Assembly (NCBI GenBank): GCA_964030785.1
Contig: OZ034967.1
Coordinates: 64,676,742-64,740,741, forward strand
Length of the DNA stretch: 64,000 nt
Direction of reading: 5' to 3'
Source of the DNA: Siderastrea siderea
Lineage: Eukaryota > Cnidaria > Anthozoa > Scleractinia > Rhizangiidae
Positions 3,432-19,227 of the stretch are shown here, in pieces (position 1 is the stretch's first letter; each line of letters begins with the position of its first letter). The position numbers and the translations under genes were made by a program. A model generated the notes under the pieces. It searched no databases and was not told the DNA's origin. It was given only the letters and a program-made list of their open reading frames with translations.

Positions 3432-3437
3432 ATTAAG
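3432..3437. repeat. Polinton target-site duplication, left copy (ATTAAG)
   Basis: The six bases directly before the element's first base are identical to the six directly after its last base (19222-19227). Six-bp target duplications are the established hallmark of Polinton/Maverick integration. Confidence 0.93.
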
Positions 3438-3778
3438 AGTAGTTAGAGAGTTGGGAGTTTCAGCACAGTTGTCAAACTTTCAGTTAAATTTTAGCAGAAA
3501 AAATCTCCAGTCAACCCGACCCCCCATTTTCACCTCACTGAATTCCCAGTTTTCCCAAAATCAGAAAAAAATTTAGTCAAACTTTTCCCGACCCCTATTT
3601 GAAAATTAAATGCACAAGCGCGGCTGTTGTTTTGTTGTCGAATTCTCATATAAATTTTATATGAGAATTTATGGGATGTTTCCGTGACCGTAAGCATAAC
3701 TTGTCACGCCATTTTTATGAATATATCTTTTATCGTCGAAGCAGCTGAGTGATATTTTATCGACCACGTAGCTACCAA
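3438..3778 (+). repeat. Polinton left terminal inverted repeat (341 bp)
   Basis: Base-by-base comparison with the reverse complement of 18881-19221 shows no difference that I can find. The repeat starts AGTAGTTAGAGAG and ends inside the PolB gene, so the last 35 codons of PolB and its stop lie within the TIR. Perfect identity implies recent insertion or TIR homogenisation during protein-primed replication. Confidence 0.95.
3641..3669. repeat. Perfect 14-bp-arm palindrome next to the PolB stop codon
   Basis: Arms 3641-3654 and 3656-3669 are perfectly complementary around one central base. The palindrome abuts and slightly overlaps the PolB stop (3669-3671) and is repeated in the other TIR at 18990-19018. 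It could act in 3'-end formation of the PolB mRNA or as a cruciform in replication. Neither role is shown. Confidence 0.8.
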
Positions 3779-6700
3779 TGAGATGTTTTTCACTTTTAAT
3801 AATTCTCATCTCATGGCGCAACTGCTTTTTATTGAAAAGCACGTCCTTGTAATTATCATGTTGCAACTGTTGTTTTATCACATTTTTTTTTATTCCCTTT
3901 GCTGTGCGACTACCCTGTTCATTGTTTTTCATAAGAGAATACATTTTAGATCTCAAGCCAACAAACTCCACGATTGGCAAACCGGCCGCTTCATCCTTGA
4001 ATTTCCCAATGACTTTCTTGTTTGAGTTATCAAAAAACGGGTTATTCTTTGGATAATCACTATTATCGAATAGATGTTTGTCTTTCCAAAAATCTTGATA
4101 AACATCATCTGCTTCAATTTCATAGGTCAGACTGTCAGTATCTGTGAACAGCAACCGAGCTTTGTCACCATATTTACTTTTGATGTAATTGTAATGAAAA
4201 TCATACATTAATGTTTTTGATAAATCTAGGATGCACATTCCAACATACGCCGGTCTGTTTAATGTCAAAGTTGGTTTCATTTTATGAACGGCGACTAAAT
4301 CCTCATTGAAAATTTTGAAGCTCACGAAACTCGGTTTACTGGTCCACTTTAATAGATTTTCTTCATCAGTTACAAGTTTAATATCCTGTCGCTTTCTCAG
4401 ATTTTCCATTGTCTTCCCAAACACCGAATTGTTCATCAACTTGAAAAAATCCTTTTCAAAAGAGTTCTTTGCCTTTGCTCTCTTTTTTGTGTTGAAATCA
4501 ATGTAAGTTTTCAACCATGGACTCTGATTGAATTCAAGAGCTCTGTGAATTTTTGTTAGTTTTAATCCTAAAGACATGTATAGTTGCAAGTTGCGATAAT
4601 GCAAAACATATCTCTCTTTTTTCGATAATGTTGGTACTAACTTTTCAACCAGTCCAACCTTTACTTTAAATTTTTCAGCAATTTCTCGGCAATAAGGGGA
4701 CAACATATCTTCAGTTACTTTGATTTTTTCAGCGGCCAGCGGATAGTCGTTGTGGAGATTATGCAACTCTTCTGGATATTCCAAATCAACCTCTAATATC
4801 AATCCTTTTTCAGACTTATCATCGAACTTGGATAAATCCACCTCTTCTTCAGTTAACCATTTGAATCCACCGGTCGGAAGATATTGACTCATTGCCCAAC
4901 CATATAGATTGTTTGCATCCAGATACATGATGTATTTTGACGCCTCCTCCGGATTGTAGTTTTCCATATACTTGTTGTTTGCCTTTCCATATCGATTGGC
5001 GATGTAACTGATCCCCCCACGCATGCCTTTTTCAATGAATAGAAACATATCAACATCACTCATCAACTCCAATTTAGTTTTTGTCATTTTCAACATTGCA
5101 TCCCAACTCAGACCGGGTGTTGTGAAATAATGAGCAGGATCCAATTCATAGTATTGTTGACATGCTTTGCGGAAATTTTCAAAAACATCAGTCAACAACA
5201 AAATATCCGATTTGAGATACAGATCGTGATACTCCCCCATTGATGATAAACCAAATTCATTCCAAACATTCTGTGCATGTTGGTACTCTTCATCTGTGAT
5301 ATGTTCATTATTCATGACGCTGAAAAAATCTTCTTTCTTCGGTAACCGGCTGTCCTCAAACTTTTTAAAACTATTCATATAATCATAAGGATAAACACCT
5401 TTCTTTTTCATCAAACTCAATTGTTCACCTTGAAATACTTGCCCCGTATATTTGAACGCTTCAGCCGGAAGATTATTCACCAAATTACTCAATGATGAGC
5501 TCATGAATTGAAAGCTGTCGATGAACAAAAGGTATCGGCCCAACATGAAGGCCATGTATTTCTCCATGTTACAGGGAATGACATTTATACTCATCTCACG
5601 TTTATTTCCTTTTGCATCAACATACACACACTCTTTCACAATATTACCAATTTCTTGCATTATAAAGTGACTGTCATACCCCTTGAGATTGTGAAACACC
5701 ACAGGTATTTTATCAGTCAATTGGAAATTTAGATTACAAAACTCGTGTGCAGAGCCTCTGTATTTGCCGGTGACATGACAGTGATCTCTTACTATGTTAT
5801 TGAAATTATCATTTGCGCCATACGGTATCTTGCAAATGTGGCATTCTTTTGCTGATCGAAAACTTTCCTTATCCTCGTTTGTCATTTCGATTGGTTTTGT
5901 GAAATGGTCTTTTGCAATCTTTTTACAGTATTTAACTTCATCCAACATATCTTTTATGAACTTGTGAATGGTCATTTCTCCTCTGTAAATTTTAGTGGGC
6001 TTTGAAAATTTATCGTCATAACAGCAAACAACTTTATAACCATATCCACAAGCTGTATGTTTTTGATATTGTTCGGTGTAGGATTTTTTTTGTGAAACTT
6101 TTTCGGTAATGGCCTCAAAATCAGCATAAATCACAAAAGGGGCCGGCAACTGTCTACGATAATTTTTGAATGCAATTGTCGATCCAGGTGCCGGCATTTT
6201 AATGGATTGTTTCCCATTAATTTCAATACAATCAACTTTGTGATTAATTAATACCCTTTCAGAGCTGAAACCTTGAAGACAGTACATACAGAAATGCTTT
6301 CTTCCATTGTTTTTCGTTTGATTGTGCATAAATTTATTGAAATTTTTTAATAAACAATAATGTTTCTTTTCTCCTTCGGTTATTAATAGCAGATTCAAAC
6401 AATGGTTGAACTTTTCTTTTGAAAGGTAAATCGGATACCGTTGCCCTTCCTCATAACCGAAGACATTTACACGAATATTATTCTGTTTCTCTATTTTGTT
6501 GTATTGTTTCACAGAAACTGGAAACTCAATTCCTGAGTAATCCAATTTTTCTACATATTTTTTATCAGACTCTTTTATTCTCTGTGGATTTTTATTTTGT
6601 GGTAAGAGGTGCCGAATATGGCACCAACGAAAACATTCATCATCATTATTTTTTATGTTTATAATTCCTTTAGCTGGGTGACGCAGCTCTTTGGGTAATG

Positions 6701-7433
6701 GAATATATGAAGAACCCCTGAGTGGTCTGTACTTTGCAACATTGATGAAATGACCATCAATTGATTTAATAATCCATGCTGAGCCTTCTGAAATCCATTG
6801 CTGAATCTTATTTAAAATCTGTTGTTGTGTTATTTGCAACAATTCTGCAATCTCTATCTCGTTTTTTACTGTTTGTGGCTCTGCATTGAAATAAGCTTCA
6901 TTTTCAATCAACTCATCTCCTTTCTGTTTTTCAAACGTAATCTTCAACGTTTCATTGAATTTGAGACCTTTCATCTCATTTAGAACCTTTGATAGATTGT
7001 TCTTAATCACTAAACGGGTTTTCTGAAGTTGAATTAATGGGTCTTGTCTGTTTGTGAGACCAATTTCATATGATCTTGTAAACCCTCGCAGGGCTTTTTC
7101 AGTTTTTGTGAAAGTTGGTTCAGTTTGTTTAGTTTGCTCTTCAATCACTTTATCAACATTTTTCAACCACTCTTCCCAATTGATAACGTTTTCAGTCGTT
7201 TTTTGAATCATATTTGGTAGCTTATTGAGTGTTGTTGTGACAACTGTTGGTTTGAGGATGGGAACGTTGATTTCAGGTACTTCACCAAATAATCTAGGGT
7301 TTGGTCTTGGTGCTGGAACAGGTGGTTTTGGTTTATAAGTTCTTGGTGCTGGAACTGGCTTCCTTTTATTTTGATTCAAAATCAATCTAATAAGCTGTGA
7401 TTTGTTGAGTTTTTTCAAACTAGCTTTATCCAT
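3669..7433 (-). CDS. Protein-primed family B DNA polymerase (Polinton PolB)
   Basis: This 1254-aa polymerase would replicate the element by protein priming. Order of features: a Pro-rich N-terminus with repeated PAPR motifs (about 27-50); a C2H2/C2HC-like finger (about 382-402); Exo I with D438/E440 in YADFEA; an HNH-like zinc cluster (about 531-567, RDHCHVTGKYRG); Exo II HNLKGYD (581-587); Exo III Y739xxxD743; polymerase motif A DANNLYG (D839); motif B NNSVFG (about 1001-1006); motif C DTD (1098-1100). All exonuclease and polymerase catalytic acids are present, so it looks intact. The start is an ATG preceded by AATAAA. The last 35 codons lie in the TIR and are duplicated at 18883-18990. It is the last gene of the minus-strand block, 69 bp after the small SAP-like gene. 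Confidence 0.97.
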   Translation of the reverse strand: MDKASLKKLNKSQLIRLILNQNKRKPVPAPRTYKPKPPVPAPRPNPRLFGEVPEINVPILKPTVVTTTLNKLPNMIQKTTENVINWEEWLKNVDKVIEEQTKQTEPTFTKTEKALRGFTRSYEIGLTNRQDPLIQLQKTRLVIKNNLSKVLNEMKGLKFNETLKITFEKQKGDELIENEAYFNAEPQTVKNEIEIAELLQITQQQILNKIQQWISEGSAWIIKSIDGHFINVAKYRPLRGSSYIPLPKELRHPAKGIINIKNNDDECFRWCHIRHLLPQNKNPQRIKESDKKYVEKLDYSGIEFPVSVKQYNKIEKQNNIRVNVFGYEEGQRYPIYLSKEKFNHCLNLLLITEGEKKHYCLLKNFNKFMHNQTKNNGRKHFCMYCLQGFSSERVLINHKVDCIEINGKQSIKMPAPGSTIAFKNYRRQLPAPFVIYADFEAITEKVSQKKSYTEQYQKHTACGYGYKVVCCYDDKFSKPTKIYRGEMTIHKFIKDMLDEVKYCKKIAKDHFTKPIEMTNEDKESFRSAKECHICKIPYGANDNFNNIVRDHCHVTGKYRGSAHEFCNLNFQLTDKIPVVFHNLKGYDSHFIMQEIGNIVKECVYVDAKGNKREMSINVIPCNMEKYMAFMLGRYLLFIDSFQFMSSSLSNLVNNLPAEAFKYTGQVFQGEQLSLMKKKGVYPYDYMNSFKKFEDSRLPKKEDFFSVMNNEHITDEEYQHAQNVWNEFGLSSMGEYHDLYLKSDILLLTDVFENFRKACQQYYELDPAHYFTTPGLSWDAMLKMTKTKLELMSDVDMFLFIEKGMRGGISYIANRYGKANNKYMENYNPEEASKYIMYLDANNLYGWAMSQYLPTGGFKWLTEEEVDLSKFDDKSEKGLILEVDLEYPEELHNLHNDYPLAAEKIKVTEDMLSPYCREIAEKFKVKVGLVEKLVPTLSKKERYVLHYRNLQLYMSLGLKLTKIHRALEFNQSPWLKTYIDFNTKKRAKAKNSFEKDFFKLMNNSVFGKTMENLRKRQDIKLVTDEENLLKWTSKPSFVSFKIFNEDLVAVHKMKPTLTLNRPAYVGMCILDLSKTLMYDFHYNYIKSKYGDKARLLFTDTDSLTYEIEADDVYQDFWKDKHLFDNSDYPKNNPFFDNSNKKVIGKFKDEAAGLPIVEFVGLRSKMYSLMKNNEQGSRTAKGIKKNVIKQQLQHDNYKDVLFNKKQLRHEMRIIKSEKHLIGSYVVDKISLSCFDDKRYIHKNGVTSYAYGHGNIP

Positions 7434-7502
7434 TTTTATTGAATAACAATATTTTTTTTTAAATTATTTTTTTCATTTCCAAGTTTCATGAAATGAAAAA
7501 AT

Positions 7503-7808
7503 TTACGCTAAAGATACTCTCACCTTATTTCCATCCTTATCCATGAACTCTTTTCCACAATTCAAAAAATAATGAACTGAACCAGGTCTTTTACCCAATA
7601 ATTTTGAGCATTGATAAATGCTTTTGCATTTTACACGAACTTGTGTGTCAACATTAATAACAAACACCTCCTTCCCTGTTGGTTTGTATAAAACTCCTTC
7701 ATCAAGATTCAAAGCTTTAACCAAATCTTTTTTTGATATCTTATTTGCGTTTTTAATATTATTTTCTACAGCCATTTTTCGAATTTCTTGATAGGTCATG
7801 AATACCAT
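7503..7808 (-). CDS. Small SAP/Rho_N-like protein with NUMOD1-like tail
   Basis: This is a 101-aa protein if the ATG at 7808 is used; an upstream TTG would add six residues, but AATAAA sits just before the ATG as in neighbouring genes. Residues 5-36 (TYQEIRKMAVENNIKN and onward) resemble the SAP or Rho-N helix-extension-helix fold that binds nucleic acid. The C-terminal half, with SIYQCSKLLGKRPGSVHYFL, resembles NUMOD1-type helix-turn-helix modules. Both resemblances are by eye and weak. It lies between integrase (46 bp gap) and PolB (69 bp gap). DNA binding during replication or regulation is an inference. Confidence 0.65.
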   Translation of the reverse strand: MVFMTYQEIRKMAVENNIKNANKISKKDLVKALNLDEGVLYKPTGKEVFVINVDTQVRVKCKSIYQCSKLLGKRPGSVHYFLNCGKEFMDKDGNKVRVSLA

Positions 7809-7854
7809 AATTTTATTGTAATACAATATTTTTTAAATTTTTTTAAATTTATTT

Positions 7855-8814
7855 TTACATCAGATCGCTAATATTTACCCATGAATTGAATTTTTCTGGA
7901 TAACCGCTCCACTTCACCAAAGCTTTGCCTTTTCGAGGGTCTCGTCGAATTACTTTCTCAATACGGTAAACGTCTTGAACAGCCTTCTGCATCTCCTGTT
8001 CATAAAAAGAACCTGATATCTCCTCACCACTGAGATCTTTGAGTCTGTAAGTGATCGGATTGGTGTATTGTATCTTGTCGACTGTAAAAACTTCTTCTGT
8101 CCAATTGGCTGTGTATCCTTTGTCAAAGACAGGACGTTTGTACTTAGATATTCTGACCTTATCACCTACTCTGTATTTTGACTTTGTTGAGATTGGCTTT
8201 ATATCACCGAAAAGGTTGAAGTAAACGATTCCTTCATTCTTCTTTTTACTTGCTTCCGTGGGTGTCATCTTTGTGCTTGAATGTTTAGTGTTGTTATACT
8301 GTTTCACTAATTTTGGTAGCATGTCAAGATACTGTGTATTCCCCTGAACAGTAAACTGTTTCCACATTTTGGTTTTGATTGTACGGTTCCATCTTTCGCA
8401 AACTGACGACTTTTCCTCATTCTCAGTTGAGTACAAGGTTATTTTATTCTTATCAATTAGTTCCTTAACATGTTTGTTGTAATACTCTTTCCCTTTATCA
8501 GTCCAAAGATATTGTGGTTTACGCCCCTCTTTGAATATTGTTTTGAATGCATTCATAACTGTTTCACCCTTTTTATCTTTTAATGGGACAATCCAACCAT
8601 ATTTACTGAACACATCGAGTACCATGAGAAGATATCTAAAACCCTTATTCCATCGACTGAATTTTTGCATCTCAACGATATCTGAACACCATATCTCGTC
8701 AATGTGGTTTGCAATTACCCGCCGCCGGGTGAAGTTACGTTTTATAGGTTTATGAAGCTCATCAGCTAATTTTTCTTGCCAGTTTTCTTCACTCGACGGC
8801 CTTTTCAGTTTAAA
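7855..8814 (-). CDS. Retroviral-type integrase with C-terminal chromodomain, -1 frame product
   Basis: This integrase (rve) domain inserts the element into host DNA. The frame is open from the stop at 8836-8838 and has no ATG before 8670. Family-conserved residues start well before that ATG (LADELHKPIKRNF and then WCSD). Catalytic acids are Asp in WCSD (8680-8682), Asp in LWTDKG and Glu in VCERWNRT, a DD(33)E spacing. An ATG start at 8670 would remove the first catalytic Asp. Translation therefore most likely enters by a -1 shift at 8808-8814 from the PLA2 frame, adding 317 residues. The C-terminal ~36 residues (EKVIRRD...ALVKWSGYP) form a chromodomain, which in other elements targets integration to marked chromatin. 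Alternatives are an old frameshift mutation or an unseen splice. Confidence 0.92.
   Translation of the reverse strand, partial: FKLKRPSSEENWQEKLADELHKPIKRNFTRRRVIANHIDEIWCSDIVEMQKFSRWNKGFRYLLMVLDVFSKYGWIVPLKDKKGETVMNAFKTIFKEGRKPQYLWTDKGKEYYNKHVKELIDKNKITLYSTENEEKSSVCERWNRTIKTKMWKQFTVQGNTQYLDMLPKLVKQYNNTKHSSTKMTPTEASKKKNEGIVYFNLFGDIKPISTKSKYRVGDKVRISKYKRPVFDKGYTANWTEEVFTVDKIQYTNPITYRLKDLSGEEISGSFYEQEMQKAVQDVYRIEKVIRRDPRKGKALVKWSGYPEKFNSWVNISDLM
8724..8814 (-). promoter_or_regulatory. Candidate -1 ribosomal frameshift site 2 (U_UUA_AAC, stop, stem)
   Basis: On the minus strand the PLA2 frame reads GGT TTA AAC TGA. The heptamer T_TTA_AAC (8808-8814) is in the correct phase for simultaneous tRNA slippage and is followed at once by the UGA stop. 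The -1 frame continues directly into integrase. After a 7-nt spacer, 8787-8800 can pair with 8724-8734: a 4-bp helix (GCCG/CGGC), a small internal loop, then a 6-bp helix (GTGAAG/CTTCAC). UUUAAAC is the heptamer used by coronaviruses. Slippage itself is inferred, not shown. Confidence 0.8.
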
Positions 8815-9461
8815 CCAAGACCAAGTTTTTGCTTTTTATCAATAATATTTCGTGCCATCCAATGACCCCATTGTCTCTCATTATAAGGAACAGAATCCAA
8901 TGCTTTGACCATTTTCCTGTCGGCTTTGTTCTTGCATTTTTTATCATCTTTGCAAACTGAATAATCAACATCATGCTGCATCGCTATAGCATCGGTCTTA
9001 CCAGTTGGTTTGTCATATATCTCTAGTATCTCTCCTGTTTTTGGATCCCATCTAACCTGATTTTCAAGGTCATTGTAGGGGCCTGTGTATTTATGCCCTG
9101 GAAGAGTCCAACCCCCTTTTGGTTTAGGCAGCCTTCCAATGGCTTTATGTATATCTAAACTTCCGCCATCCAAATCCTTTCTGTCGGTTTTATACTTTCT
9201 ATTTGGTCTGATTTTAGTGGATAATTGATCAAGCATCTCTGATCCTGTTTTTTGAATGAAAGGAGTCGCTTTTTCCAAAGCATAATCGAGAGCCTTTTTC
9301 TGAAGTTTTGGGTTCCTTAGAGCTTCGCTACCATAATAACGCCCCATTTCTACAGCTTTTTTTCCAAGCCAAGGAATACCATGGTGAATTAACATATCAG
9401 TACCTGTTGAAGCCATCGTATCCAGAATGCCCGCCCCTTCAGACGGGCTATTTAGTTTCCC
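8805..9461 (-). CDS. Phospholipase A2-like domain protein (-1 frame product of zinc-ribbon gene)
   Basis: This segment resembles the parvovirus-VP1-like PLA2 family found in many Polintons. It has a Ca2+-loop motif YTGPYNDL and a catalytic-helix motif HDVDYS with His and Asp present, followed by a Lys/Cys stretch and GLGLN before the UGA stop. In parvoviruses such domains breach endosomal membranes; a similar entry role here is inference. The frame has an ATG at 9506, but that ATG is inside the zinc-ribbon coding region and lacks the AATAAA-type leader. Entry by -1 slippage at 9455-9461 is more likely, giving a 269-aa zinc-ribbon/PLA2 protein. The segment ends on another slippery heptamer leading into integrase. 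Confidence 0.87.
   Translation of the reverse strand, partial: GKLNSPSEGAGILDTMASTGTDMLIHHGIPWLGKKAVEMGRYYGSEALRNPKLQKKALDYALEKATPFIQKTGSEMLDQLSTKIRPNRKYKTDRKDLDGGSLDIHKAIGRLPKPKGGWTLPGHKYTGPYNDLENQVRWDPKTGEILEIYDKPTGKTDAIAMQHDVDYSVCKDDKKCKNKADRKMVKALDSVPYNERQWGHWMARNIIDKKQKLGLGLN
9408..9461 (-). promoter_or_regulatory. Candidate -1 ribosomal frameshift site 1 (G_GGA_AAC, stop, pseudoknot)
   Basis: The zinc-ribbon frame ends CCG GGA AAC TAA. The heptamer G_GGA_AAC (9455-9461) is in slip phase and directly precedes the stop; the -1 frame continues into the PLA2 segment. Six nt downstream is an all-GC hairpin with 5-bp arms at 9444-9448 and 9429-9433, unusual in this AT-rich element. Its loop (TGAAG, 9437-9441) can pair with CTTCA at 9408-9412, making an H-type pseudoknot. 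GGGAAAC is used for gag-pro frameshifting in some betaretroviruses. Function is inferred. Confidence 0.8.
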
Positions 9462-9613
9462 GGCACCTCTGATTGTTTCACAAATCTGGTTTTGGTTATT
9501 CCACATTCAGCACATGTGCAGAAAAACATTAATCGTCCGTTTTTCGCATATTTATATCCTGAAGGTTTAACACATTCAGTCTGTTTTCTTTGTTTCACGC
9601 AATACGTTTTCAT
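9452..9613 (-). CDS. DUF5679-like zinc-ribbon protein, first frame of a frameshift cassette
   Basis: This 53-aa frame starts with MKTYCVK and has cysteines at 5, 14, 32, 34 and 37, with a CAEC knuckle and a preceding KNGR motif. It resembles DUF5679-type zinc ribbons known at the N-terminus of Polinton proteins. Its ATG directly follows the protease stop codon (TAA-ATG with no gap), suggesting termination-reinitiation or a very short leader. The frame stops at 9452-9454 directly after a slippery heptamer, and the -1 frame encodes the PLA2 domain. Products expected: 53 aa (no slip), 269 aa (one slip), 586 aa (two slips). Confidence 0.82.
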   Translation of the reverse strand: MKTYCVKQRKQTECVKPSGYKYAKNGRLMFFCTCAECGITKTRFVKQSEVPGN

Positions 9614-10060
9614 TTATATTATGCCAGGATTTTTAAAATATTTTTCAATAAATTTTTCATTTTTCATGGTATCATGAATATCAAAGGGTTGTAAAATGTC
9701 GAAATATGTATTACCCTTATTCATTTCATTCAAAAAGTATAAACAAAAATATCCACAAGTGGTGGTACCCAAATTTTGAATCTGATCATTTTGATGAATC
9801 AAAGTGAGATTATTTTTCACTGCATGATTCACAATTTCTTGAAAAGGGGGTAACCCAAAACTATCGAAATAATTGATTACCCCATCCTTTACAAATGTTG
9901 CGACCCAATGACTTCCACTCATATATGACGGCTCAAGATTGTAAATGAAAAACGCCATTTTGTGGTTGTGTGGAACAGTTTGGTCCCTTGATAAAACACC
10001 ACCCATATCAATTGGAATTCTGAGATACTCACACCATTCCATTAAATCATAATTGCTCAT
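9614..10060 (-). CDS. Adenain-like cysteine protease (Polinton PRO, C5 family)
   Basis: This 148-aa protease probably matures the virion proteins. Counting from the ATG at 10060, the adenain/Ulp1-type residues are H51 (GSHW), D66 (YFDSFG), Q95 and C102 (TTTCGYF). The length fits the family. The frame stays open to beyond 10297, and codon use in 10061-10150 looks coding in this frame. The ATG has no AATAAA leader, unlike neighbouring genes. The protease may therefore be made as a C-terminal extension of the upstream core precursor through a frame change at the A17 run. Otherwise it could start at 10060, where the precursor stop overlaps it by 14 nt. The zinc-ribbon ATG abuts its stop. Confidence 0.93.
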   Translation of the reverse strand: MSNYDLMEWCEYLRIPIDMGGVLSRDQTVPHNHKMAFFIYNLEPSYMSGSHWVATFVKDGVINYFDSFGLPPFQEIVNHAVKNNLTLIHQNDQIQNLGTTTCGYFCLYFLNEMNKGNTYFDILQPFDIHDTMKNEKFIEKYFKNPGII

Positions 10061-10895
10061 TGGAACATGTTTTCGAAATTTCAAAGTAGGGTTCCCAACA
10101 GCGGAATCCCATTGAACGGACTGTTTTTTCCAAGGAGCAATCCCTCCCCCGATTTTTTTTTTTTTTTTTCTTCCCTTCACCCATTTTTTCCCATGTTCCA
10201 AAAAATGGGGGTATTGGTTGATATGCTCCCATTCTGGGGGCCGCTCCACCTGCAAGTGCGGGTGCTTTTCCAATTCTTGGAACTCCTTTTGAACCACCTG
10301 TCATTTTTTTAAAAGCTTCAAGAGCGAGTGGAACACCAATGGATGCCAGAAGTGTCCCTAGAAAACCACCAGTTTGTTTTTGTGTTGGTTTAATATGAAC
10401 ACCAGAACCAGTTTGCAAGGCATTTAAAACATCCTTTTTCTGTTTGTTGCTCAAAAGACTCTTATTTTCAATGAGTCGATTTATTTTAGCATATGGAACC
10501 ATAAAACCACCTGTCTGTGAACCTTTTCCAGATATCTTTTTGACAATTTGAGATGCCCCTTCGGAAGCCGCTCCCGCGAGAGCCGATAATCCCACTGTTT
10601 TTGCTAATGTTGGCCCAAATGTTCGAGCCAGTGACAAAATTGAAGTCAAAAGTGAACCACCCACTTGTTTTCTAATGTTGGTTTTGGCCAGTTTTATTTC
10701 CATTCCTTTTCTTGAATTACGATTTTTTTCCAACTTTTTTACAACATTTGAAGGAACAAGAAGAGTGTCATTTCCGGAAAGAGCATCATATTTTAATCTC
10801 AGCTTGATTGTTTCACGATTGTTGTAAGCTGAGGCGAGTTTCTTTTTTTGAAAATCAGAAAGCGAAACATTTATTTCATATAGTTGAGTAGACAT
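10047..10895 (-). CDS. Core/pX-like precursor with several adenain-type cleavage motifs
   Basis: This 282-aa protein begins with the family module shared by four neighbours (INVSLSDFQKKK, then SGNDTLLVP, then KGMEIKLAK). It adds a Gly-rich, amphipathic region (about 75-235) and a Lys run. The body matches adenain consensus (hydrophobic or N/Q-x-G-x|G or -x-G-G|x) at about seven places: QVGG(80), ISGK(124), QTGG(130), QTGS(164), QTGG(177), MTGG(201), LAGG(217). It is plausibly a virion core or membrane-active precursor processed by the adjacent protease. The last ~35 residues, after the A17 run, look non-coding in this frame; the coding signal moves to the protease frame. The true C-terminus is therefore uncertain. 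Confidence 0.85.
   Translation of the reverse strand: MSTQLYEINVSLSDFQKKKLASAYNNRETIKLRLKYDALSGNDTLLVPSNVVKKLEKNRNSRKGMEIKLAKTNIRKQVGGSLLTSILSLARTFGPTLAKTVGLSALAGAASEGASQIVKKISGKGSQTGGFMVPYAKINRLIENKSLLSNKQKKDVLNALQTGSGVHIKPTQKQTGGFLGTLLASIGVPLALEAFKKMTGGSKGVPRIGKAPALAGGAAPRMGAYQPIPPFFGTWEKMGEGKKKKKKNRGRDCSLEKTVRSMGFRCWEPYFEISKTCSNEQL
10153..10169. repeat. 17-base A/T homopolymer at the precursor-protease frame switch
   Basis: The minus strand has 17 consecutive A. Upstream, codon use fits the precursor frame; downstream, it fits the protease frame, which is +1 (or -2) away. With 16 A the two would be one continuous frame. With 15 or 18, a -1 slip would join them. The cause could be an assembly miscount, replication slippage, or programmed or transcriptional slippage. 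Confidence 0.85.
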
Positions 10896-10947
10896 TTTAT
10901 TTTATTAATTCAAAATAAAATAAAATAAAATAAATTCACAAATTTTC

Positions 10948-11496
10948 CTACATTCCTGAAGATGGAATATCTTCCATCAGTTTTGCTACATTCTTAAACA
11001 CAGAATATTCCGTTGAATTAGGTGAGGTATTTAACAATGAATAATCCAAAATAAAATCAAAACCAATACTATTATATTTGCGGGCATTTTCCAACCTTTC
11101 AACAACCGTTGGGGGAGTATAAAGTCGAAAATTTTTCAACCCTTCATCATTTATTGAAGGAACCAGTGAAAAACCATTATCAATCATTTCAGAAAAAGTA
11201 TATTTAGAAATTCCATCACGCACACATCCAATAAATGACTCAGGGAAAGTTTCTTTATCAGATACAAATTGATCATACATATCCCATTTAATTGACTTTT
11301 CAGGAACAAGAAGAGTATCATTTCCGTAAAGGGCATCATTTGTCAAATGCAGTTTGATTTTTCCTAAAAGGGGTTTTCCGAAAATGAAATCACATTTCGG
11401 CTGTTCGACTTCTCTACGAGAGGAAAAAGCAGCAAAAATGTCTTCTTTCTGATGCTTTGAAAGTTTAACATTTATTTTGTGTAGTTTTGTTTCCAT
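10948..11496 (-). CDS. Core-family paralogue, 182 aa, with long insert
   Basis: The N-terminal module (INVKLSKHQKED, then YGNDTLLVP) and the second module (LENARKYNSIGFDF) are those of the 282-aa precursor. Between them is an insert containing TFSEMIDNGFSLVPS and a TPPTVVERLENAR segment, also present in the 147-aa paralogue. It lacks the Gly-rich cleavable body. It ends 52 bp before the 282-aa gene. The function is not known; a structural or decoy role is a guess. Confidence 0.82.
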   Translation of the reverse strand: METKLHKINVKLSKHQKEDIFAAFSSRREVEQPKCDFIFGKPLLGKIKLHLTNDALYGNDTLLVPEKSIKWDMYDQFVSDKETFPESFIGCVRDGISKYTFSEMIDNGFSLVPSINDEGLKNFRLYTPPTVVERLENARKYNSIGFDFILDYSLLNTSPNSTEYSVFKNVAKLMEDIPSSGM

Positions 11497-11518
11497 TTAT
11501 CTTAGTAAATTTATTGTT

Positions 11519-11866
11519 TTAAGCAAATAGTTTTTTTATATTCTTTTCCACTGAATCTTTTATTGGTCCAGTCATCCCCTCATATGTCAAATCTACTAAC
11601 AATCCTCTACACTCGGAGCGGTTTTTTTCCAATTCGCCAACGATTGATGGGAAAGGTATGGAATATTCTTTTTCGAATTCCTCTTTTAAACTTTCAAATG
11701 TTATTTGAGGAACAAGAAGAGTGTCATTTCCTGTAAGATCTTTATTTTTTAACTTCAGTCGGATATTTTTACCCTTGATGAAAGCATTACGAATTTTTCG
11801 TTTTTGATACTTTGAAAGTGTTACATTTATTTCATGGAGATATGTTACAAGTGGTTCTGTTTCCAT
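11519..11866 (-). CDS. Core-family paralogue, 115 aa
   Basis: It carries the module INVTLSKYQKRK, an LRLKLKNK-like strand, TGNDTLLVP, and a second module around ELEKNRSECRGLLVDL. It then ends without the Gly-rich body. Its leader shares ATTTATTTCGTTTAA with the 147- and 94-aa paralogues, which points to tandem duplication including the control region. Gap to the next gene is 22 bp. Function unknown. Confidence 0.82.
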   Translation of the reverse strand: METEPLVTYLHEINVTLSKYQKRKIRNAFIKGKNIRLKLKNKDLTGNDTLLVPQITFESLKEEFEKEYSIPFPSIVGELEKNRSECRGLLVDLTYEGMTGPIKDSVEKNIKKLFA

Positions 11867-11898
11867 TTATTTAATTTAAACGAAATAAATTTATAAAT

Positions 11899-12183
11899 TT
11901 ATAAATTTTCACTGATATTCACTATATTTCTAAGAACTGAAATTTTATGTGAGAGAGGCAAGGTATCATATAATGAATATTTCAAATGAAATTCCATTTT
12001 ATTGGGGGCATTATTCAGTTTTTTGAATAACTTTGGAGGAACAATAAGAGTGTCACGTCCTCTGAGATTATCTTTTCTTGATAATCTCAGTCTTATATCT
12101 ATGAGATTCATGAAAGCACTATTAATTTTTTGTTTTTGATTATTTGAAAGTGTAACATTTATTTTAATCAGTTCTTCATCCAT
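11899..12183 (-). CDS. Core-family paralogue, 94 aa (shortest)
   Basis: Minimal version of the family: INVTLSNNQKQK, then RGRDTLIVPP (GNDTL changed to GRDTL), then a short MEFHLKYSLYDTL module. It starts only 9 bp after the 147-aa gene's stop with an AATAAATG-type start. It supports a modular unit of roughly 90 residues. Function unknown. Confidence 0.8.
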   Translation of the reverse strand: MDEELIKINVTLSNNQKQKINSAFMNLIDIRLRLSRKDNLRGRDTLIVPPKLFKKLNNAPNKMEFHLKYSLYDTLPLSHKISVLRNIVNISENL

Positions 12184-12192
12184 TTATTTTAT

Positions 12193-12636
12193 TCAACGAA
12201 ATAAATTAACCATATTTTCTGCAATGGAAAGTGCTGTTGAGTAATTTATTAAAGAATAATCCAAAGCAATGACCATTCCTTTATTATTTTCACGAGCTTT
12301 TTCCAAAATTTCGAGAACCTTTGGAGGAGCGAACAGTTGAAATTTTTCCGCACTTTTTGTAATATGTGGAGGAGCTGACAGTTGAAATTTTTCACCCCCT
12401 GATGGAATAATGAAATAACCATTATCATACATTTCGGAAAAAGTTTTTTTATCAAGAATACATCCTTCTTCACCCGTTTTGACCAATTTTTGAGGGATAA
12501 AAAGGGTATCATTTCCAGAAAGGGAATCATTTTCCAAAAACAATTGAATTGATGCTTGTTTGATTAAAGCATCATGAATTAGTCGTTTTTGACAATTCGA
12601 AAGTGTGATATTTATTTCGATTAGTTCTACTTTCAT
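12193..12636 (-). CDS. Core-family paralogue, 147 aa, with repeated insert
   Basis: Starts with INITLSNCQKRL and SGNDTLFIP. It then has an insert with TFSEMYDNGYFIIPS and two tandem versions of a short AEKFQLxAPP unit, followed by the second module LEKARENNKGMVIAL. The insert is homologous to that in the 182-aa paralogue. It is the first family gene after the capsid gene (43 bp gap). Function unknown. Confidence 0.82.
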   Translation of the reverse strand: MKVELIEINITLSNCQKRLIHDALIKQASIQLFLENDSLSGNDTLFIPQKLVKTGEEGCILDKKTFSEMYDNGYFIIPSGGEKFQLSAPPHITKSAEKFQLFAPPKVLEILEKARENNKGMVIALDYSLINYSTALSIAENMVNLFR

Positions 12637-12679
12637 TTATTTTATTTAAACGAAATAAAATAAATTCACATTTTTTGAA

Positions 12680-13969
12680 TCAAGCAATCATGAGCTCATT
12701 TCCAACCTTGTTGACAATAACCTCATTTTCGTAAAATACGATAGCATGAGCTTTCACATTGGCTGTTGGTGCTGCATTCAATCTGTAGTTTAAAACAAGT
12801 TGTTTCGGATCTCGAGTAGCAGTCTCTTTTTGGTAGGTTAAATTGAAATAAATAAGACCGTAAAGAGATGCGAAATTGTGTGGATTCAACTGCGTTCCTG
12901 TGTTGAAATTATTATTTCGAAAAGCATAAGACATTAGATCGTCGAAGATTACCACTTTTGAATCAGCATCATACTCTAATTCAGGATAAAAAGTATTTTT
13001 TCCATACTCCAAACGACACGACGCAAGAGAGCTATTGTTATCGGCTGCATTCAACTTGAAAGTATTAAAAATGTAAGGAGTTCTCTCAGATTCATCATTG
13101 TTTGGGGGACCAGTTCTTTGTAAATAAATAAATACGTGTTTAACATTGTCAATGGCTGGGCTTATTTGAAACATGTTTTGAATTGCTCTTGTTTCAGCAC
13201 TCTCATTATACAAATCTTTCATATACGTCCATTTGATTGGTTTTAGAAAATCTTTCACGAATTCACCATATTCAACATCTTTTGGAATCATTTTTGGAAC
13301 CCAAAGATAAAATCTCTTCACTACAACACGACCAGGGTCTGTGCCGTTTGCCATGTGAATCAATTCACCATCTTCATTTAAATCAATTTCGAACTCGAGC
13401 TGCATCGGAGGAAGCATCCTATCTTCCAATTCCTCAAAGAAACTATATCTGTTCAAAGGAATTATCTCATTTATGCTTTTGGCTCCACCCCCTCCATTAT
13501 TTTGGTTTGCTTGAGTTAAAATTCGCCTTGCTTCAAAACCCGAATTTGTATTTGCTGTTGAATCTTCTGTGTCAAGATACCAAAAACTTTTTTTCGCCAC
13601 TGACCTGCTGAAATCATTACTATACTCCAGCAAATTTTTAACATTTGTTGTTCTATGAACGTTGTCAGTAACATATACTACTTTACCAGCAGATTTGATA
13701 GTCATGCGTTTAATGAGGGAATGCGACCCATTAATTATTGAAATTCGATCGGCCGCCGCATAACCGGACCCATCAGCTTTCTTTTGAAGCTCTTTGACCA
13801 CTTCGAAATATCCATTGAAATAATCAAAAAAATTAGATCTGTCTGTTATTGTGAATTTATATCCTGTTTTTTTCTGAGTACCATTGTTTCCAGGTTGTTC
13901 AATTAAATTTTCAGGGGAGTATCTAACTTTTTCATATCTCTGCAGTTTATCACTTGTTCTGAAACTCAT
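12680..13969 (-). CDS. Polinton major capsid protein (double jelly-roll)
   Basis: This 429-aa protein has the length and motifs of Polinton hexon-like capsid proteins. A central PLNRYSFFEELEDRMLPPMQ block is followed by LEFEIDLNEDGEL. The C-terminus has the pattern LVLNYRLNAAPTANV with a charged tail. Trimers of such proteins form the icosahedral shell in related viruses. It sits between the 121-aa protein and the core-family genes, matching a morphogenesis cluster. No frame disruption. Identification rests on motif recall, not an alignment. Confidence 0.93.
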   Translation of the reverse strand: MSFRTSDKLQRYEKVRYSPENLIEQPGNNGTQKKTGYKFTITDRSNFFDYFNGYFEVVKELQKKADGSGYAAADRISIINGSHSLIKRMTIKSAGKVVYVTDNVHRTTNVKNLLEYSNDFSRSVAKKSFWYLDTEDSTANTNSGFEARRILTQANQNNGGGGAKSINEIIPLNRYSFFEELEDRMLPPMQLEFEIDLNEDGELIHMANGTDPGRVVVKRFYLWVPKMIPKDVEYGEFVKDFLKPIKWTYMKDLYNESAETRAIQNMFQISPAIDNVKHVFIYLQRTGPPNNDESERTPYIFNTFKLNAADNNSSLASCRLEYGKNTFYPELEYDADSKVVIFDDLMSYAFRNNNFNTGTQLNPHNFASLYGLIYFNLTYQKETATRDPKQLVLNYRLNAAPTANVKAHAIVFYENEVIVNKVGNELMIA

Positions 13970-13997
13970 CTTTTTTATTTATATGTTTAAAACTTTT

Positions 13998-14363
13998 TTA
14001 TTTTTTGTTTTTTTTTGTTTCATACCCCTCTCCAGAAATCATTCTATTCAACAAAACGTTGTAATCTTCTTGTTTTGGTTTGTTTGTTGCTTTCGGAACT
14101 TTTTTCCCCAAAGACTGAAGGTCTTTTATAAAAAGATGACCTGATTTTTCAGCAATTTTTTCAACAACTTTTTTACCAACTTTGTCACCAGCACTTTCTA
14201 TCCCCGATTTCAAAGCTTTTTTAGCAACAGGTTTTAAAACTTTATCCACAATCATTTTCATTGGTTTGAAAATATTATCCACAATTAAACCTGATCCCAT
14301 ATGTTTGTAAACAAATTTTCCAAGACTTGGATGATAAATTAGTTCGTAATTGTACGACCGCAT
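13998..14363 (-). CDS. Small basic virion-like protein, 121 aa
   Basis: A Lys-rich, partly amphipathic protein: a short N-terminus, a GSGLIVDNIFKPMK segment, then a helical Lys/Val region (about 35-85) and a basic tail. Near the C-terminus, ISGE|G fits the adenain type-1 cleavage consensus. Its position between the penton and major capsid genes and its composition suggest a minor core or cement protein similar in spirit to adenovirus pVI/pX. I do not recognise it by sequence. Confidence 0.72.
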   Translation of the reverse strand: MRSYNYELIYHPSLGKFVYKHMGSGLIVDNIFKPMKMIVDKVLKPVAKKALKSGIESAGDKVGKKVVEKIAEKSGHLFIKDLQSLGKKVPKATNKPKQEDYNVLLNRMISGEGYETKKNKK

Positions 14364-14371
14364 TTTTATAA

Positions 14372-15133
14372 TTATATTTTATTTTTTTTTTCTCTCAAAA
14401 TCAGAGAAAATGATGTATCAGCGTCGTTTAAATCAATAATTCGTCTTTTTCCATCAGTAATGTAAATCCGCAGAGTTTGTATCACGTACTTATTCACTGG
14501 ATAAAATTTAACTCTCAATGGCTCCTTGGTAAAAGCATAAGATGGTGTCAAATCATTTGTTCCAAAAGTGTAAATAATATCCGTTTCATGTTCATCAACA
14601 AGGCTTTCCGAAATGAGATCACAATGTATGTTCAAAATCTCTGTATCTTGACTGAGATTTGGTGTGTAGTCGCCATCACTTGAACTGGTTAAAATTCGTT
14701 TTTTAAAACCAATCAGATCGTTAAAATTCGATGTTGTCAGGTCCAGTTGGTAGTCTGTTGCAAGATTTACTACTGTTTTGAAAGTAGTGTTGTTGAATTG
14801 CAATGTAATTGGATACGTGGTCGAGCTTGAAGTTACTTTTTTTGTCTGTTGTTTGATAAAATCGTTGAAACTGGTATAATTCCATACACCCGGGGGAAAT
14901 ATTATATCTTTCCAAGTTTTTCCACCATCTGAAGAGTATTTTATTTTTCGGTTGTTCAAATCTGATGTGATATTGAACCATGTGAAAGCCATGGATAAAC
15001 GATCTAAACCGAGTTCGTATTGTTTGTTTTGATTAAGCATTATTGGTTGATTATATCTGATTGTGAAATCGCTGGGCTTATTTTTTTTTTGTTTCTTAAC
15101 GTTGTGAGAGGATAAAATTAATGTAGTATTCAT
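14372..15133 (-). CDS. Minor capsid protein (penton, single jelly-roll type)
   Basis: This 253-aa protein has the size and position of the Polinton penton protein. An N-terminal segment (SDFTIRYNQPIML, then QYELGLDRLSMAFTWFNI) matches the start of known Polinton minor capsid proteins. The remainder is beta-rich. It starts 5 bp after the 328-aa gene stop and ends 8 bp before the next gene. The role at icosahedral vertices is known for the family. Confidence 0.85.
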   Translation of the reverse strand: MNTTLILSSHNVKKQKKNKPSDFTIRYNQPIMLNQNKQYELGLDRLSMAFTWFNITSDLNNRKIKYSSDGGKTWKDIIFPPGVWNYTSFNDFIKQQTKKVTSSSTTYPITLQFNNTTFKTVVNLATDYQLDLTTSNFNDLIGFKKRILTSSSDGDYTPNLSQDTEILNIHCDLISESLVDEHETDIIYTFGTNDLTPSYAFTKEPLRVKFYPVNKYVIQTLRIYITDGKRRIIDLNDADTSFSLILREKKNKI

Positions 15134-15138
15134 TTATT

Positions 15139-16125
15139 TCACATCGAGAAAAAGTTTTCATAAATTTTATTGTATTTATCTTTGCTGATTATGTAATTTC
15201 TCAACAAAATATCGAGAATGGCAACACCTGTGTTTCTGAGCTCAATGCTATTGTTTCCGGCATCAATTGAACCAACTATCAACTCCAATTTTTTAACAGC
15301 TTCTAAAGGATTGATGAAAACTGCGACGGCTTTTCCACCTCGTTTTGTTTTCTTTCCTTTGAGACCGGAACCTTTGAAACTCTTTAACTTATTTTTGTTG
15401 AAATTGATATAATCGTTGAGAACTTTTTGAGCGTCGTCGATGACCTTTCTTCTGAACTGTGCTTCAGATGGGGTTATCAAACCTTTATTCAACTGCTTGG
15501 TAATTTGTGTTTTGTAACCTGGGAGTTGTTGTCTTTTTTTGACTGCATTTTCTATTTTCTTTGATAAGAAAGAATGTCTTATTTTTTCTGTCATATCTTC
15601 TCTTTTGAGTTGTGCTTCAATGTCATCATAGTTGGTCAATCCAAGTTCATCTAAAGTCTCATTTATTCTATCTTCTTCAAAAATCTCATAATCTGGAACT
15701 TCATCTTCTTCATATTCTGGGGGGTCTTCAAGTTGTTGCATATACTCAGGATTGACATATATTTTCTTTTCCCCAGTTTCCAAGTCTTTTAGAACATCAT
15801 CATAGGAGGGTGGTTTTGGAACAAGCTGTTTAGTATTTTCTGGTTCATGAAACAAATCTTCAAGATTGTAATCTGGTACTTCATCTTCAATATTGATACC
15901 ATAATCTGGAACCTCTACTTTTTTCCTTTGCAACCGTCTTTTAAAAGGTTGTGGTTGTGCCAAGTCTTTCAAACCGGATGTTATCGGTTTGAAAAGCTTC
16001 TCTGCTTCAACATCACTCATTGCATCAGTTATTTTCTTTCGTTCTATCGTTTCCCTGATATTATTAACATCTCGGCCCATTTTTGATATTTTTTCAGCCA
16101 TTTCTTTCCACTTGAGGAGACTCAT
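15139..16125 (-). CDS. Polinton conserved protein with PPxY and repeated VPDY motifs
   Basis: A 328-aa, largely hydrophilic protein. Residues 70-146 are acidic with three EVPDY/DEVPDY repeats (72-75, 83-86, 143-146) and two PPxY motifs, PPSY (105-108) and PPEY (135-138). PPxY binds WW domains of Nedd4-type ubiquitin ligases in several animal viruses, including adenovirus protein VI. A basic GSGLKGKKTKRGGK patch (252-265) precedes a conserved C-terminal domain (GSIDAGNNSIEL and on) that I recall from other Polintons. It is the first gene of the minus-strand cluster, transcribed from the divergent intergenic region. Role in virion assembly or entry is inferred. Confidence 0.8.
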   Translation of the reverse strand: MSLLKWKEMAEKISKMGRDVNNIRETIERKKITDAMSDVEAEKLFKPITSGLKDLAQPQPFKRRLQRKKVEVPDYGINIEDEVPDYNLEDLFHEPENTKQLVPKPPSYDDVLKDLETGEKKIYVNPEYMQQLEDPPEYEEDEVPDYEIFEEDRINETLDELGLTNYDDIEAQLKREDMTEKIRHSFLSKKIENAVKKRQQLPGYKTQITKQLNKGLITPSEAQFRRKVIDDAQKVLNDYINFNKNKLKSFKGSGLKGKKTKRGGKAVAVFINPLEAVKKLELIVGSIDAGNNSIELRNTGVAILDILLRNYIISKDKYNKIYENFFSM

Positions 16126-16277
16126 TTTATTTCATTAAAATAAAAAAATATTTTTTTTGTTTCAATTGAATACAAAAAAAGTTCGCATAGCGTGTTGCAT
16201 GGCGTGTTGCATAGCGTGTTGCATGGCGTGTTGCATGAAATTATTGAAAAAAAAAAATTCTGTTGAGAATTAATAAA
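16126..16277. promoter_or_regulatory. Divergent promoter region with 12-bp tandem repeat
   Basis: This 152-bp AT-rich region separates the leftward cluster from the rightward ATPase gene. It contains four and a half copies of GCATRGCGTGTT at 16185-16237, strictly alternating A and G at the fifth base. GC-rich repeats in an otherwise A/T stretch suggest a protein-binding array controlling both directions. Role inferred from position. Confidence 0.7.
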
Positions 16278-16922
16278 ATGAAAATACCAAACTGTGACGT
16301 TGAAGGTAATGAAGACAGTAATTTCACTCAGTTGTATCCTTTCATGCCTGATAGATGCTTCAGAATGTTGATCTGCGCTCCGAGTGGGAGTGGTAAAACC
16401 AATCTTTTGTTTTACATGATAAACAAACCCCTATTATTTTTTGATAAGATTTATCTATATGCTAAAAACTTACAGCAAAACAAGTATCAATATTTGTTGA
16501 AAAAATTTGAACCTCTTTCGAAAAAATATGGTTATAATATTATTGAAGGTAGCAACGGCGGGATAATTCCTTTAGATGACATGGATGATGGAAACCAAAA
16601 GTTAATCATTTTCGATGATTACTTGAACACTGGAGTGAAAAATGATCGTGAAATACAAAACTATTTCACAAACTCTCGAAATAAAAATTGCAGCTGTATC
16701 TATCTGTCTCAGTCTTTTTACAATACAAATAAAACCATCAGATTAAACTGTTCCCATTACTGCATTTTCGATTTAGAAAGCAAGAATGAAGAGAGAAGGG
16801 TATGCCAAGAATTGAACATCAACAAAGACGACTACCTCTCAGCAACAAAAGAACCATATACTTTTCTATATGTTGATAAGCCACGAAAATTTAAAGCAAA
16901 AAATTTTGATGAAAAAATCTGA
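16278..16922 (+). CDS. FtsK/HerA-type (A32-like) genome-packaging ATPase
   Basis: A 214-aa P-loop ATPase that would pump DNA into capsids. Walker A is APSGSGKTN (34-42); Walker B is LIIFDDYL with D113 and D114; a downstream LSQSFY sensor-like segment and NCSHYCIFD follow. The chosen ATG at 16278 is preceded by AATAAA; an upstream TTG at 16263 would add five residues and is unlikely. First gene of the rightward pair, 11 bp before the fibre gene. Confidence 0.93.
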   Translation: MKIPNCDVEGNEDSNFTQLYPFMPDRCFRMLICAPSGSGKTNLLFYMINKPLLFFDKIYLYAKNLQQNKYQYLLKKFEPLSKKYGYNIIEGSNGGIIPLDDMDDGNQKLIIFDDYLNTGVKNDREIQNYFTNSRNKNCSCIYLSQSFYNTNKTIRLNCSHYCIFDLESKNEERRVCQELNINKDDYLSATKEPYTFLYVDKPRKFKAKNFDEKI

Positions 16923-16933
16923 ATAGTTAATAA

Positions 16934-18634: not shown

Positions 18635-18880
18635 ACATTTTTCAGTTATTATATAGCACAAGTCTACTTTTCTAAAAAATAACAAACTTTACTAATAAAC
18701 TTTACCAATAAACTTTACTTCAAATACAAGTTCATCTGATGACTCATTTCCTCGGGAAAGTCCCTGTGGTTTTCAAGACAAAAGAACTGTCTAACGCGTT
18801 AGACAGACAATTGAAAAACTTAATGACTCATTTCCTCGGGAAAGTCCCTGTGGACTAATTAAAAGTTAAAGACATCAAAT
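18635..18880. other. Right subterminal non-coding region with repeats and palindrome
   Basis: No gene. A 31-bp unit is present twice in direct orientation (18739-18769 and 18823-18853); each contains the inverted motif TTTCC-TCG-GGAAA. Between them, 18787-18806 is a perfect 20-bp palindrome (CTGTCTAACGCGTTAGACAG). These may serve replication, packaging or transcript ends. Not seen at the left end. Confidence 0.8.
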
Positions 18881-19221
18881 TTGGTAGCTACGTGGTCGAT
18901 AAAATATCACTCAGCTGCTTCGACGATAAAAGATATATTCATAAAAATGGCGTGACAAGTTATGCTTACGGTCACGGAAACATCCCATAAATTCTCATAT
19001 AAAATTTATATGAGAATTCGACAACAAAACAACAGCCGCGCTTGTGCATTTAATTTTCAAATAGGGGTCGGGAAAAGTTTGACTAAATTTTTTTCTGATT
19101 TTGGGAAAACTGGGAATTCAGTGAGGTGAAAATGGGGGGTCGGGTTGACTGGAGATTTTTTCTGCTAAAATTTAACTGAAAGTTTGACAACTGTGCTGAA
19201 ACTCCCAACTCTCTAACTACT
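18881..19221 (-). repeat. Polinton right terminal inverted repeat (341 bp)
   Basis: Exact reverse complement of 3438-3778 by inspection, ending CTAACTACT at the host junction. It includes a second copy of the TIR palindrome (18990-19018). Confidence 0.95.
18883..18990 (+). pseudogene. Duplicate of the PolB 3' end inside the right TIR
   Basis: Codons for the last 35 PolB residues plus stop appear here on the plus strand because the TIR extends into PolB. No start or polymerase domains are attached. It keeps the PolB tail under TIR homogenisation. Confidence 0.9.
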
Positions 19222-19227
19222 ATTAAG
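19222..19227. repeat. Polinton target-site duplication, right copy (ATTAAG)
   Basis: Identical to 3432-3437; see the left copy. Confidence 0.93.

Follow-up and report, generated by a model that had tools for sequence, protein, structure and literature searches.

Two tandem candidate -1 ribosomal frameshift signals in the zinc-ribbon/PLA2/integrase cassette of a Polinton from the coral Siderastrea siderea

A Polinton-like DNA transposon lies within the stretch of the Siderastrea siderea genome analyzed here (contig OZ034967.1, positions 64,676,742 to 64,740,741), a 64-kb region that we call the window and whose own numbering is used throughout. Three overlapping open reading frames (ORFs) of this element encode, in order, a zinc ribbon, a phospholipase A2 (PLA2) domain and an rve integrase. 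From the nucleotide sequence and from RNA folding models, we consider it very probable that this cassette is expressed through two tandem programmed -1 ribosomal frameshift signals. The slippery heptamers, their phase and spacing, the predicted stems downstream, the conservation of these features within one genome and the missing start of the integrase are read from the DNA or from its folding.

The two joints and their predicted stems

The features of the cassette, all on the minus strand, are as follows.

9452..9613, minus: ORF1, zinc ribbon (DUF5679), 53 amino acids (aa), ending PGN-stop (PF18930, E 1.5e-4)
9455..9461, minus: joint 1 heptamer G GGA AAC, with TAA (9454-9452) directly after it
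9429..9448, minus: joint 1 hairpin predicted by folding, 8 bp with a 4-nt loop, 6 nt past the heptamer
8805..9506, minus: ORF2, PLA2 (PF08398, Phospholip_A2_4; E 1.4e-10), 233 aa
8808..8814, minus: joint 2 heptamer T TTA AAC, with TGA (8807-8805) directly after it
8787..8800, minus: 5' arm of the joint 2 stem predicted by folding, GCCGUCGAGUGAAG, 7 nt past the heptamer
8721..8734, minus: 3' arm of the same predicted stem, CUUCACCCGGCGGC, coding for FTRRR; 52 nt separate the arms
7855..8835, minus: ORF3, rve integrase with a C-terminal chromodomain, 326 aa (profile matches PF00665 and PF00385)

An earlier note on this DNA had described three ORFs with two -1 joints and heptamers abutting the stops, and this description held when coordinates, frames and sequences were reread. 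The frames run 1, 2 and 0 modulo 3, both steps being -1; ORF1 ends in CCG GGA AAC TAA and ORF2 in GGT TTA AAC TGA, and the overlaps of 18 codons (joint 1) and 10 codons (joint 2) each contain one in-phase heptamer and no more. Arithmetic on the ORFs gives products of 53, 269 (53+216) and 586 (269+317) aa, in agreement with the same note. The PF18930 match of ORF1 (22.2 bits) is below the 27-bit cut-off of the family, and a protein 92% identical to this zinc ribbon, P0242, reaches 28.9 bits. ORF2 contains HDxxY, which we take to be the motif of its PLA2 family. The first ATG of ORF3 is residue 56, past the first catalytic Asp (52).

In the mechanism that we propose, most ribosomes would terminate after the 53-aa zinc ribbon; some would slip at GGGAAAC, aided by the hairpin 6 nt downstream, and yield a zinc ribbon-PLA2 protein of 269 aa; and a fraction of those would slip again at TTTAAAC, aided by the 13-bp stem 7 nt downstream, and yield a zinc ribbon-PLA2-integrase protein of 586 aa. 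A small amount of integrase, fused to a membrane-active PLA2, might thus enter particles. Since PF08398-type PLA2 acts in parvovirus entry, fusion to it is a possible way of carrying integrase in the particle, and such packaging is plausible. That ribosomes do slip here, how often they do so and what becomes of the 586-aa protein are inferences from the features above.

As expected of a canonical -1 signal, each joint combines an in-phase X XXY YYZ heptamer with a predicted stem in the range of 5-9 nt downstream (6 and 7 nt), and heptamer and frame are conserved among copies or relatives. In-phase heptamers occupy 65 of 4825 codon positions in the 16 ORFs of the element, and three of these ORFs, the two at the joints and the unrelated o94, finish with a heptamer that abuts the stop codon; the 94-aa ORF at 11899-12183 (minus strand) ends on AAATTTA TAA. 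When all 1214 heptamers on both strands of the whole window were ranked, joint 1 came first for the stability of a local hairpin at 5-9 nt downstream (-15.7; runner-up -14.7), and joint 2 ranked first for a stem reaching within about 100 nt (-23.6), one of 13 pairs and a single A.C mismatch. Each joint is extreme for its own kind of stem only: joint 1 ranks 213 in the long-range scan and joint 2 ranks 184 in the local scan. None of 5000 synonymous recodings that kept the protein reached the observed stem, at joint 1 or at joint 2, which makes it unlikely that the modeled stems are side effects of what the sequence encodes. Joint 2 stands out less by its full-length minimum free energy (z -2.09; 15 of 2000 recodings equally low). 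CGG accounts for 13 of 183 Arg codons in the element, and three of those 13 are inside the joint 2 3' arm.

Conservation among genomic copies and relatives

The source genome (830.9 Mb, 402 contigs) was searched in two ways. With a 121-bp probe over joint 2, for which 40 of 137 candidates were scored, identical DNA was found at 24 places, window included, on 13 contigs; the -1 step that the window shows at joint 2 therefore cannot be a sequencing indel. A search with the integrase protein gave 3594 first-look candidates, of which 123 rows were scored: the integrase alone forms an open frame of 322-362 aa in 121 of them and a fused frame of 535-537 aa in two, and an internal stop occurs in three. 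The copy number is very high by both searches, which suggests recent bursts. Joint DNA was read in 120 copies (119 loci and the window), all among the 123 integrase rows; the first 39 loci were chosen by joint 2 DNA identity and are biased accordingly, and the other 80 were chosen by integrase protein alone.

Joint 2 is a -1 step in 117 of the 120 copies, fused in two and a +1 step in one. All 117 overlaps contain exactly one in-phase heptamer (TTTAAAC in 51, AAAAAAC in 53, AAAAAAA in 12 and TTTAAAA in one). Joint 1, in the 110 copies with a called zinc ribbon, is -1 in 105, +1 in three and fused in two, and GGGAAAC is present in 104 of the 105 copies with the -1 step. The three +1 copies retain the ending GN or GNGLARRKGRAY and diverge in the PLA2 frame beyond it, which suggests that they were damaged later. 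In the protein-found set, joint 2 is -1 in 77 of 80 copies and joint 1 in 66 of 71, with both -1 joints and their heptamers in 62 of 80. The element's own heptamer density predicts about 0.35 heptamers per overlap at joint 2 and about 0.20 at joint 1; one heptamer each was observed in 77 of 77 and 65 of 66 overlaps of this set, respectively. The stop follows the heptamer after 0, 10 or 14 codons at joint 1 and after 0, 4, 8, 11, 13 or 14 at joint 2; as far as these sequences go, the heptamer is conserved and the position of the stop is not. In 96 of the 117 copies with a -1 joint 2, no integrase-frame ATG precedes the first catalytic Asp, and ordinary ATG initiation therefore cannot yield an intact integrase there.

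The predicted stems are conserved along with the heptamers. Among 37 distinct joint 1 sequences, the hairpin arms begin 6 nt past the heptamer in 36, with the first seven pairs unchanged; the eighth pair is U.G in 22, C-G in two and a broken G.G in 12. The remaining sequence (loci L076, L084 and L118) has GCCCUCUC..GAGGGGGC 7 nt on, replacing GCCCGUCU..GGGCGGGC, and by its sequence is a re-paired version of the joint 1 stem. Synonymous entropy is low in the joint 1 hairpin codons (mean 0.21 vs 0.63), but the variability of 69 of the 103 other codons does not exceed that of the hairpin's most variable codon. At joint 2, 57 of 67 distinct sequences have the arm GCCGUCG beginning 7 nt past the heptamer, after UUUAAAC and after AAAAAAC alike. 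Over the 14 positions of the stem in these 57 sequences, changes preserve pairing save at one position (A.C in 29, A-U in 28). Third-position variants of the 3' arm (FTRRR) behave accordingly: UUC/UUU and CGG/CGA keep the pair, ACC (29) and ACU (28) set A.C versus A-U, and all 57 sequences use CGG for the second Arg. A third family of 13 loci (L050-L059, L062, L066 and L067) has lost the long-range arm, with AGA codons where others have CGG, and its heptamer is AAAAAAC, followed at 6 nt by a predicted local hairpin (z -2.1; 35 of 1000 shuffles equally low); a fourth, of 10 loci (L068-L074, L079, L080 and L092), has AAAAAAA with a variant stem. According to these folds, the stimulatory structure at joint 2 seems to have been replaced, not dropped.

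Relatives from other assemblies were examined as proteins, using the best 120 of 5934, of 2466 and of 276 matches; Oculina patagonica and Stylophora are named among the matches listed. In the best 120 zinc-ribbon rows, GN follows the last Cys motif in 47, of which 25 stop there, 17 have a short xxARxxGRAY-like tail and five are others, and 43-45 rows form a separate group without GN. This second group of zinc ribbons (most of P0312-P0361) has an GKGLLLGKNSPFRKIPVLGAIL-like tail. Overlapping -1 N-termini read GK in 52 of 53, the pattern itself having required K; it matched 55 N-termini, two of which were integrase linkers and were left out. In a dual-coding test, which asked whether one DNA could encode both overlapping protein ends in a given frame, 33 pairs at joint 1 were compatible with -1, none with +1 and none with shuffled tails; at joint 2, with up to four mismatches allowed, -1 was compatible in 15 of 21 integrase rows and +1 in none of 21, and 11 of the 15 inferred stretches contain a heptamer. 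The stretches inferred for P0072 and P0089 would read C TTA AAY, an imperfect heptamer of a class absent from the heptamers of the 120 genome copies. A further run of protein pairs, in which many of the -1 pairs use the window's own integrase, gave 55 in -1 and none in +1 at overlaps of at least 8, and four in +1 at overlaps of at least 6. The joint 1 hairpin could be encoded by 34 of 42 listed 12-mers (two skipped, at least two regex errors) and by 436 of 1600 shuffles, a test that is weak because the rows are related. No DNA relatives outside the source genome were found in the viral-contig, genome-contig or phage collections searched.

Some relatives encode all three domains (P0009, P0052 and P0113) or PLA2-integrase (P0018) as one ORF, and the three-domain fusion is therefore a natural architecture. 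A tree places the fused and separate labels at at least 15 changes; because "separate" includes start choices of gene callers, the tree was not used for dating the switches.

The surrounding element

Both ends of the element are present in the window.

3438..19221, no strand: Polinton-like element, 15.8 kb, with terminal inverted repeats (TIRs) inside 6-bp direct repeats
3438..3778, no strand: left TIR, 341 bp
18881..19221, no strand: right TIR, 341 bp
3432..3437, no strand: left copy of the target-site duplication (TSD) ATTAAG
19222..19227, no strand: right copy of the TSD ATTAAG

The TIR pair has no mismatches over 341 bp and lies inside intact ATTAAG duplications, for which reason the Polinton at 3438-19221 is probably a recent insertion. 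An imperfect 46-bp inverted repeat (78%) is located just outside the right end, at 19272-19374. Besides the long TIRs and the 6-bp duplication, the element has two more of the features by which Polintons/Mavericks are recognized, namely an rve integrase with a chromodomain (PF00665, E 5e-12; PF00385, E 1.3e-6) and an A32/FtsK-type packaging ATPase (PF04665, Pox_A32, 33.9 bits against a cut-off of 22.8). Endonuclease VII is the sole match in Pfam and PHROGs of a 1264-aa ORF (7463-3669), in which PolB-like motifs are seen by eye only; no solved structure matched this ORF, and its C-terminal 676 aa have no Pfam match. An adenain-type protease candidate matches Peptidase_C5 below the cut-off (E 0.016), and a profile scan of the ORFs at 12683-13978 and 14375-15133 gave no capsid family match.

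The remaining long ORFs are open, but the frame changes across an A17 run between the protease-like ORF and the ORF upstream of it. This run (10169-10153, minus strand) lies in the overlap of the ORF at 10898-10047, possibly a minor capsid protein, and the protease-like ORF at 10300-9614, which are in a +1 relation; slippage, an indel or an assembly error could account for it. By BLASTP, five adjacent ORFs at 10047-12636 (minus strand) have N-terminal domains that are related to one another, each roughly 50-70 aa long (xxEINVxLSxxQK...GNDTLLVP), and thus form a tandem paralogous array.

Alternative explanations and known systems

One alternative, in which decay or mis-assembly of the element left the joints as indels and its intact gene is one ORF, could draw on the one-ORF relatives and on the tendency of homopolymer heptamers to acquire indels; we regard it as highly improbable, given the mismatch-free TIRs and intact TSD, the identity of joint 2 at 24 places on 13 contigs, the same -1 step and heptamer in 117 of 120 copies, the rarity of internal stops (3 of 123 integrase rows) and the excess of -1 over +1 steps (117 vs 1 at joint 2, 105 vs 3 at joint 1). 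Equally improbable in our judgment is a joining of the frames by splicing: introns have been reported in some Polintons, but splicing gives no cause for an in-phase heptamer in nearly every overlap, nor for the stems. RNA polymerase slippage on A-runs, which would produce a shifted mRNA, is marginally easier to entertain, since 65 of 117 copies have AAAAAAC or AAAAAAA at joint 2; nevertheless, GGGAAAC and TTTAAAC are not homopolymers, and stems at 6-7 nt together with the tandem-slip phase suit ribosomes. The alternative to which we give the most weight, although it too is improbable, is that PLA2 and integrase use their own starts through leaky scanning, reinitiation or an internal ribosome entry site, the heptamers being incidental. 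ORF2 does have its own ATG inside the overlap, at 9506, and many relatives keep an ATG there; moreover, 21 of 117 copies have an integrase-frame ATG before the first Asp, only upstream of the heptamer in 14 and only downstream in seven. Such starts, however, would have to serve an integrase whose first catalytic Asp is preceded by no ATG, either in the window or in 96 of 117 copies, and a PLA2 whose ATG is preceded by four others after the zinc-ribbon ATG, one of them in the zinc-ribbon frame; the conservation of heptamer, spacing and stem would be left unexplained.

Several observations weigh against two programmed -1 frameshifts as the explanation. Copies from a single genome are relatives of one another rather than independent cases, and exceptions occur at joint 2 (+1 in one and fused in two of 120) and at joint 1 (+1 in three and fused in two of 110, heptamer absent in one of 105); four of the 15 inferred joint 2 stretches of relatives likewise have no heptamer. 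One-ORF forms make up two of the 123 integrase rows in the genome and 33 of the 109 protein rows of the tree set, so frameshifting is not indispensable. As to the stems, the eighth pair of the joint 1 hairpin is broken (G.G) in 12 of 36 distinct sequences and two of the 36 fold best in another register, the joint 2 ranking has a close runner-up (-23.2 vs -23.6) and its long-range measure was designed after the fold was seen. In part of the copies, the hairpin and the 5' arm sit in two overlapping frames, and the invariance of these two is therefore partly protein-driven.

Weighed together, the conserved heptamers, spacing and stems and the absence of an integrase start in most copies strongly support the two-step -1 cascade that the earlier note had proposed. 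That note had named two outcomes that would speak against it. The absence of heptamers in relatives is not what was found, as they are present in 117 of 117 joint 2 and 104 of 105 joint 1 copies with the -1 step; sequencing indels are contradicted at joint 2 by the 24 identical 121-bp stretches and at joint 1 by the same -1 step with GGGAAAC in 104 copies. The note's idea that the cascade may limit integrase and bring it into virions together with PLA2 would be consistent with such a cascade. Its further suggestion, that the cascade might be a trace of a retroviral-type integrase history, did not fare as well. Retroviral inheritance of the signal is unlikely, because the element families do not share one joint 2 heptamer and both signals are located within or next to genes, zinc ribbon and PLA2, that are not retroviral; moreover, PLA2 and integrase, or all three domains, share a single ORF in some relatives.

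On a broader scale, we think it possible, though somewhat short of an even chance, that an entire radiation of virus-like DNA transposons in eukaryotes, probably Polintons of anthozoans, evolved or kept a two-step -1 cascade resembling that of Gag-Pro-Pol. Most of the integrase would then be the C-terminal part of a rare, extended form of a virion PLA2 entry protein and would be packaged with this membrane-penetrating protein and delivered by it, and the second signal would swap heptamer and stem types with its function kept. If two frameshifts do express the cassette, these elements combine a retroviral-style translation strategy with DNA-virus capsids; this would suggest a route for Polinton integrase into the particle, and the splitting of these genes by gene callers would be accounted for.

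We found no report of integrase frameshifting in a Polinton or any other eukaryotic DNA transposon in the literature searched, which was without most subscription papers and the 2021 adintovirus paper. In the available portions of related accounts, possible -1 slippery sites are suggested toward the 3' ends of certain adintovirus Penton genes (PMC11071296), frameshifts appear only as damage, artefact or search setting (PMC8097293, PMC10120064, PMC12721341), ribosomal frameshifting is mentioned only for an unrelated virus (PMC12567637) and a genome-map legend names a PLA2 domain of the parvovirus capsid type (PMC3671162).

The element resembles Polintons/Mavericks and adintoviruses, such as that of the "Stylophora coral adintovirus" integrase (P0112), in its TIRs, 6-bp TSD, rve-chromodomain integrase and A32-type ATPase; it differs from the published accounts of them in that frameshifting at these genes is not described there, as far as the accessible parts of those accounts extend. 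The relatives P0009, P0052, P0113 and P0018 have the same domains in the same order, with no frameshift needed at one or both joints.

A recombinase metered by -1 frameshifting is textbook knowledge for retroviruses and bacterial insertion sequences. Beta- and deltaretroviruses produce Gag-Pro-Pol through double -1 frameshifting, and the cassette shares with this system two tandem -1 sites, X XXY YYZ heptamers (AAAAAAC and UUUAAAC among them), a predicted structure past a short spacer and an integrase placed last, as a fusion. Unlike Gag-Pro-Pol, it belongs to a DNA element with Polinton ends, has a zinc ribbon and PLA2 upstream instead of Gag and protease, and, in the scanned ORFs of the element, shows no match to the reverse transcriptase or RNase H that Gag-Pro-Pol has between protease and integrase. 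In bacterial insertion sequences, transposases are made by -1 frameshifting; these elements are likewise DNA transposons whose recombinase is controlled by -1 slippage, but they are unrelated, bacterial and use a single site.

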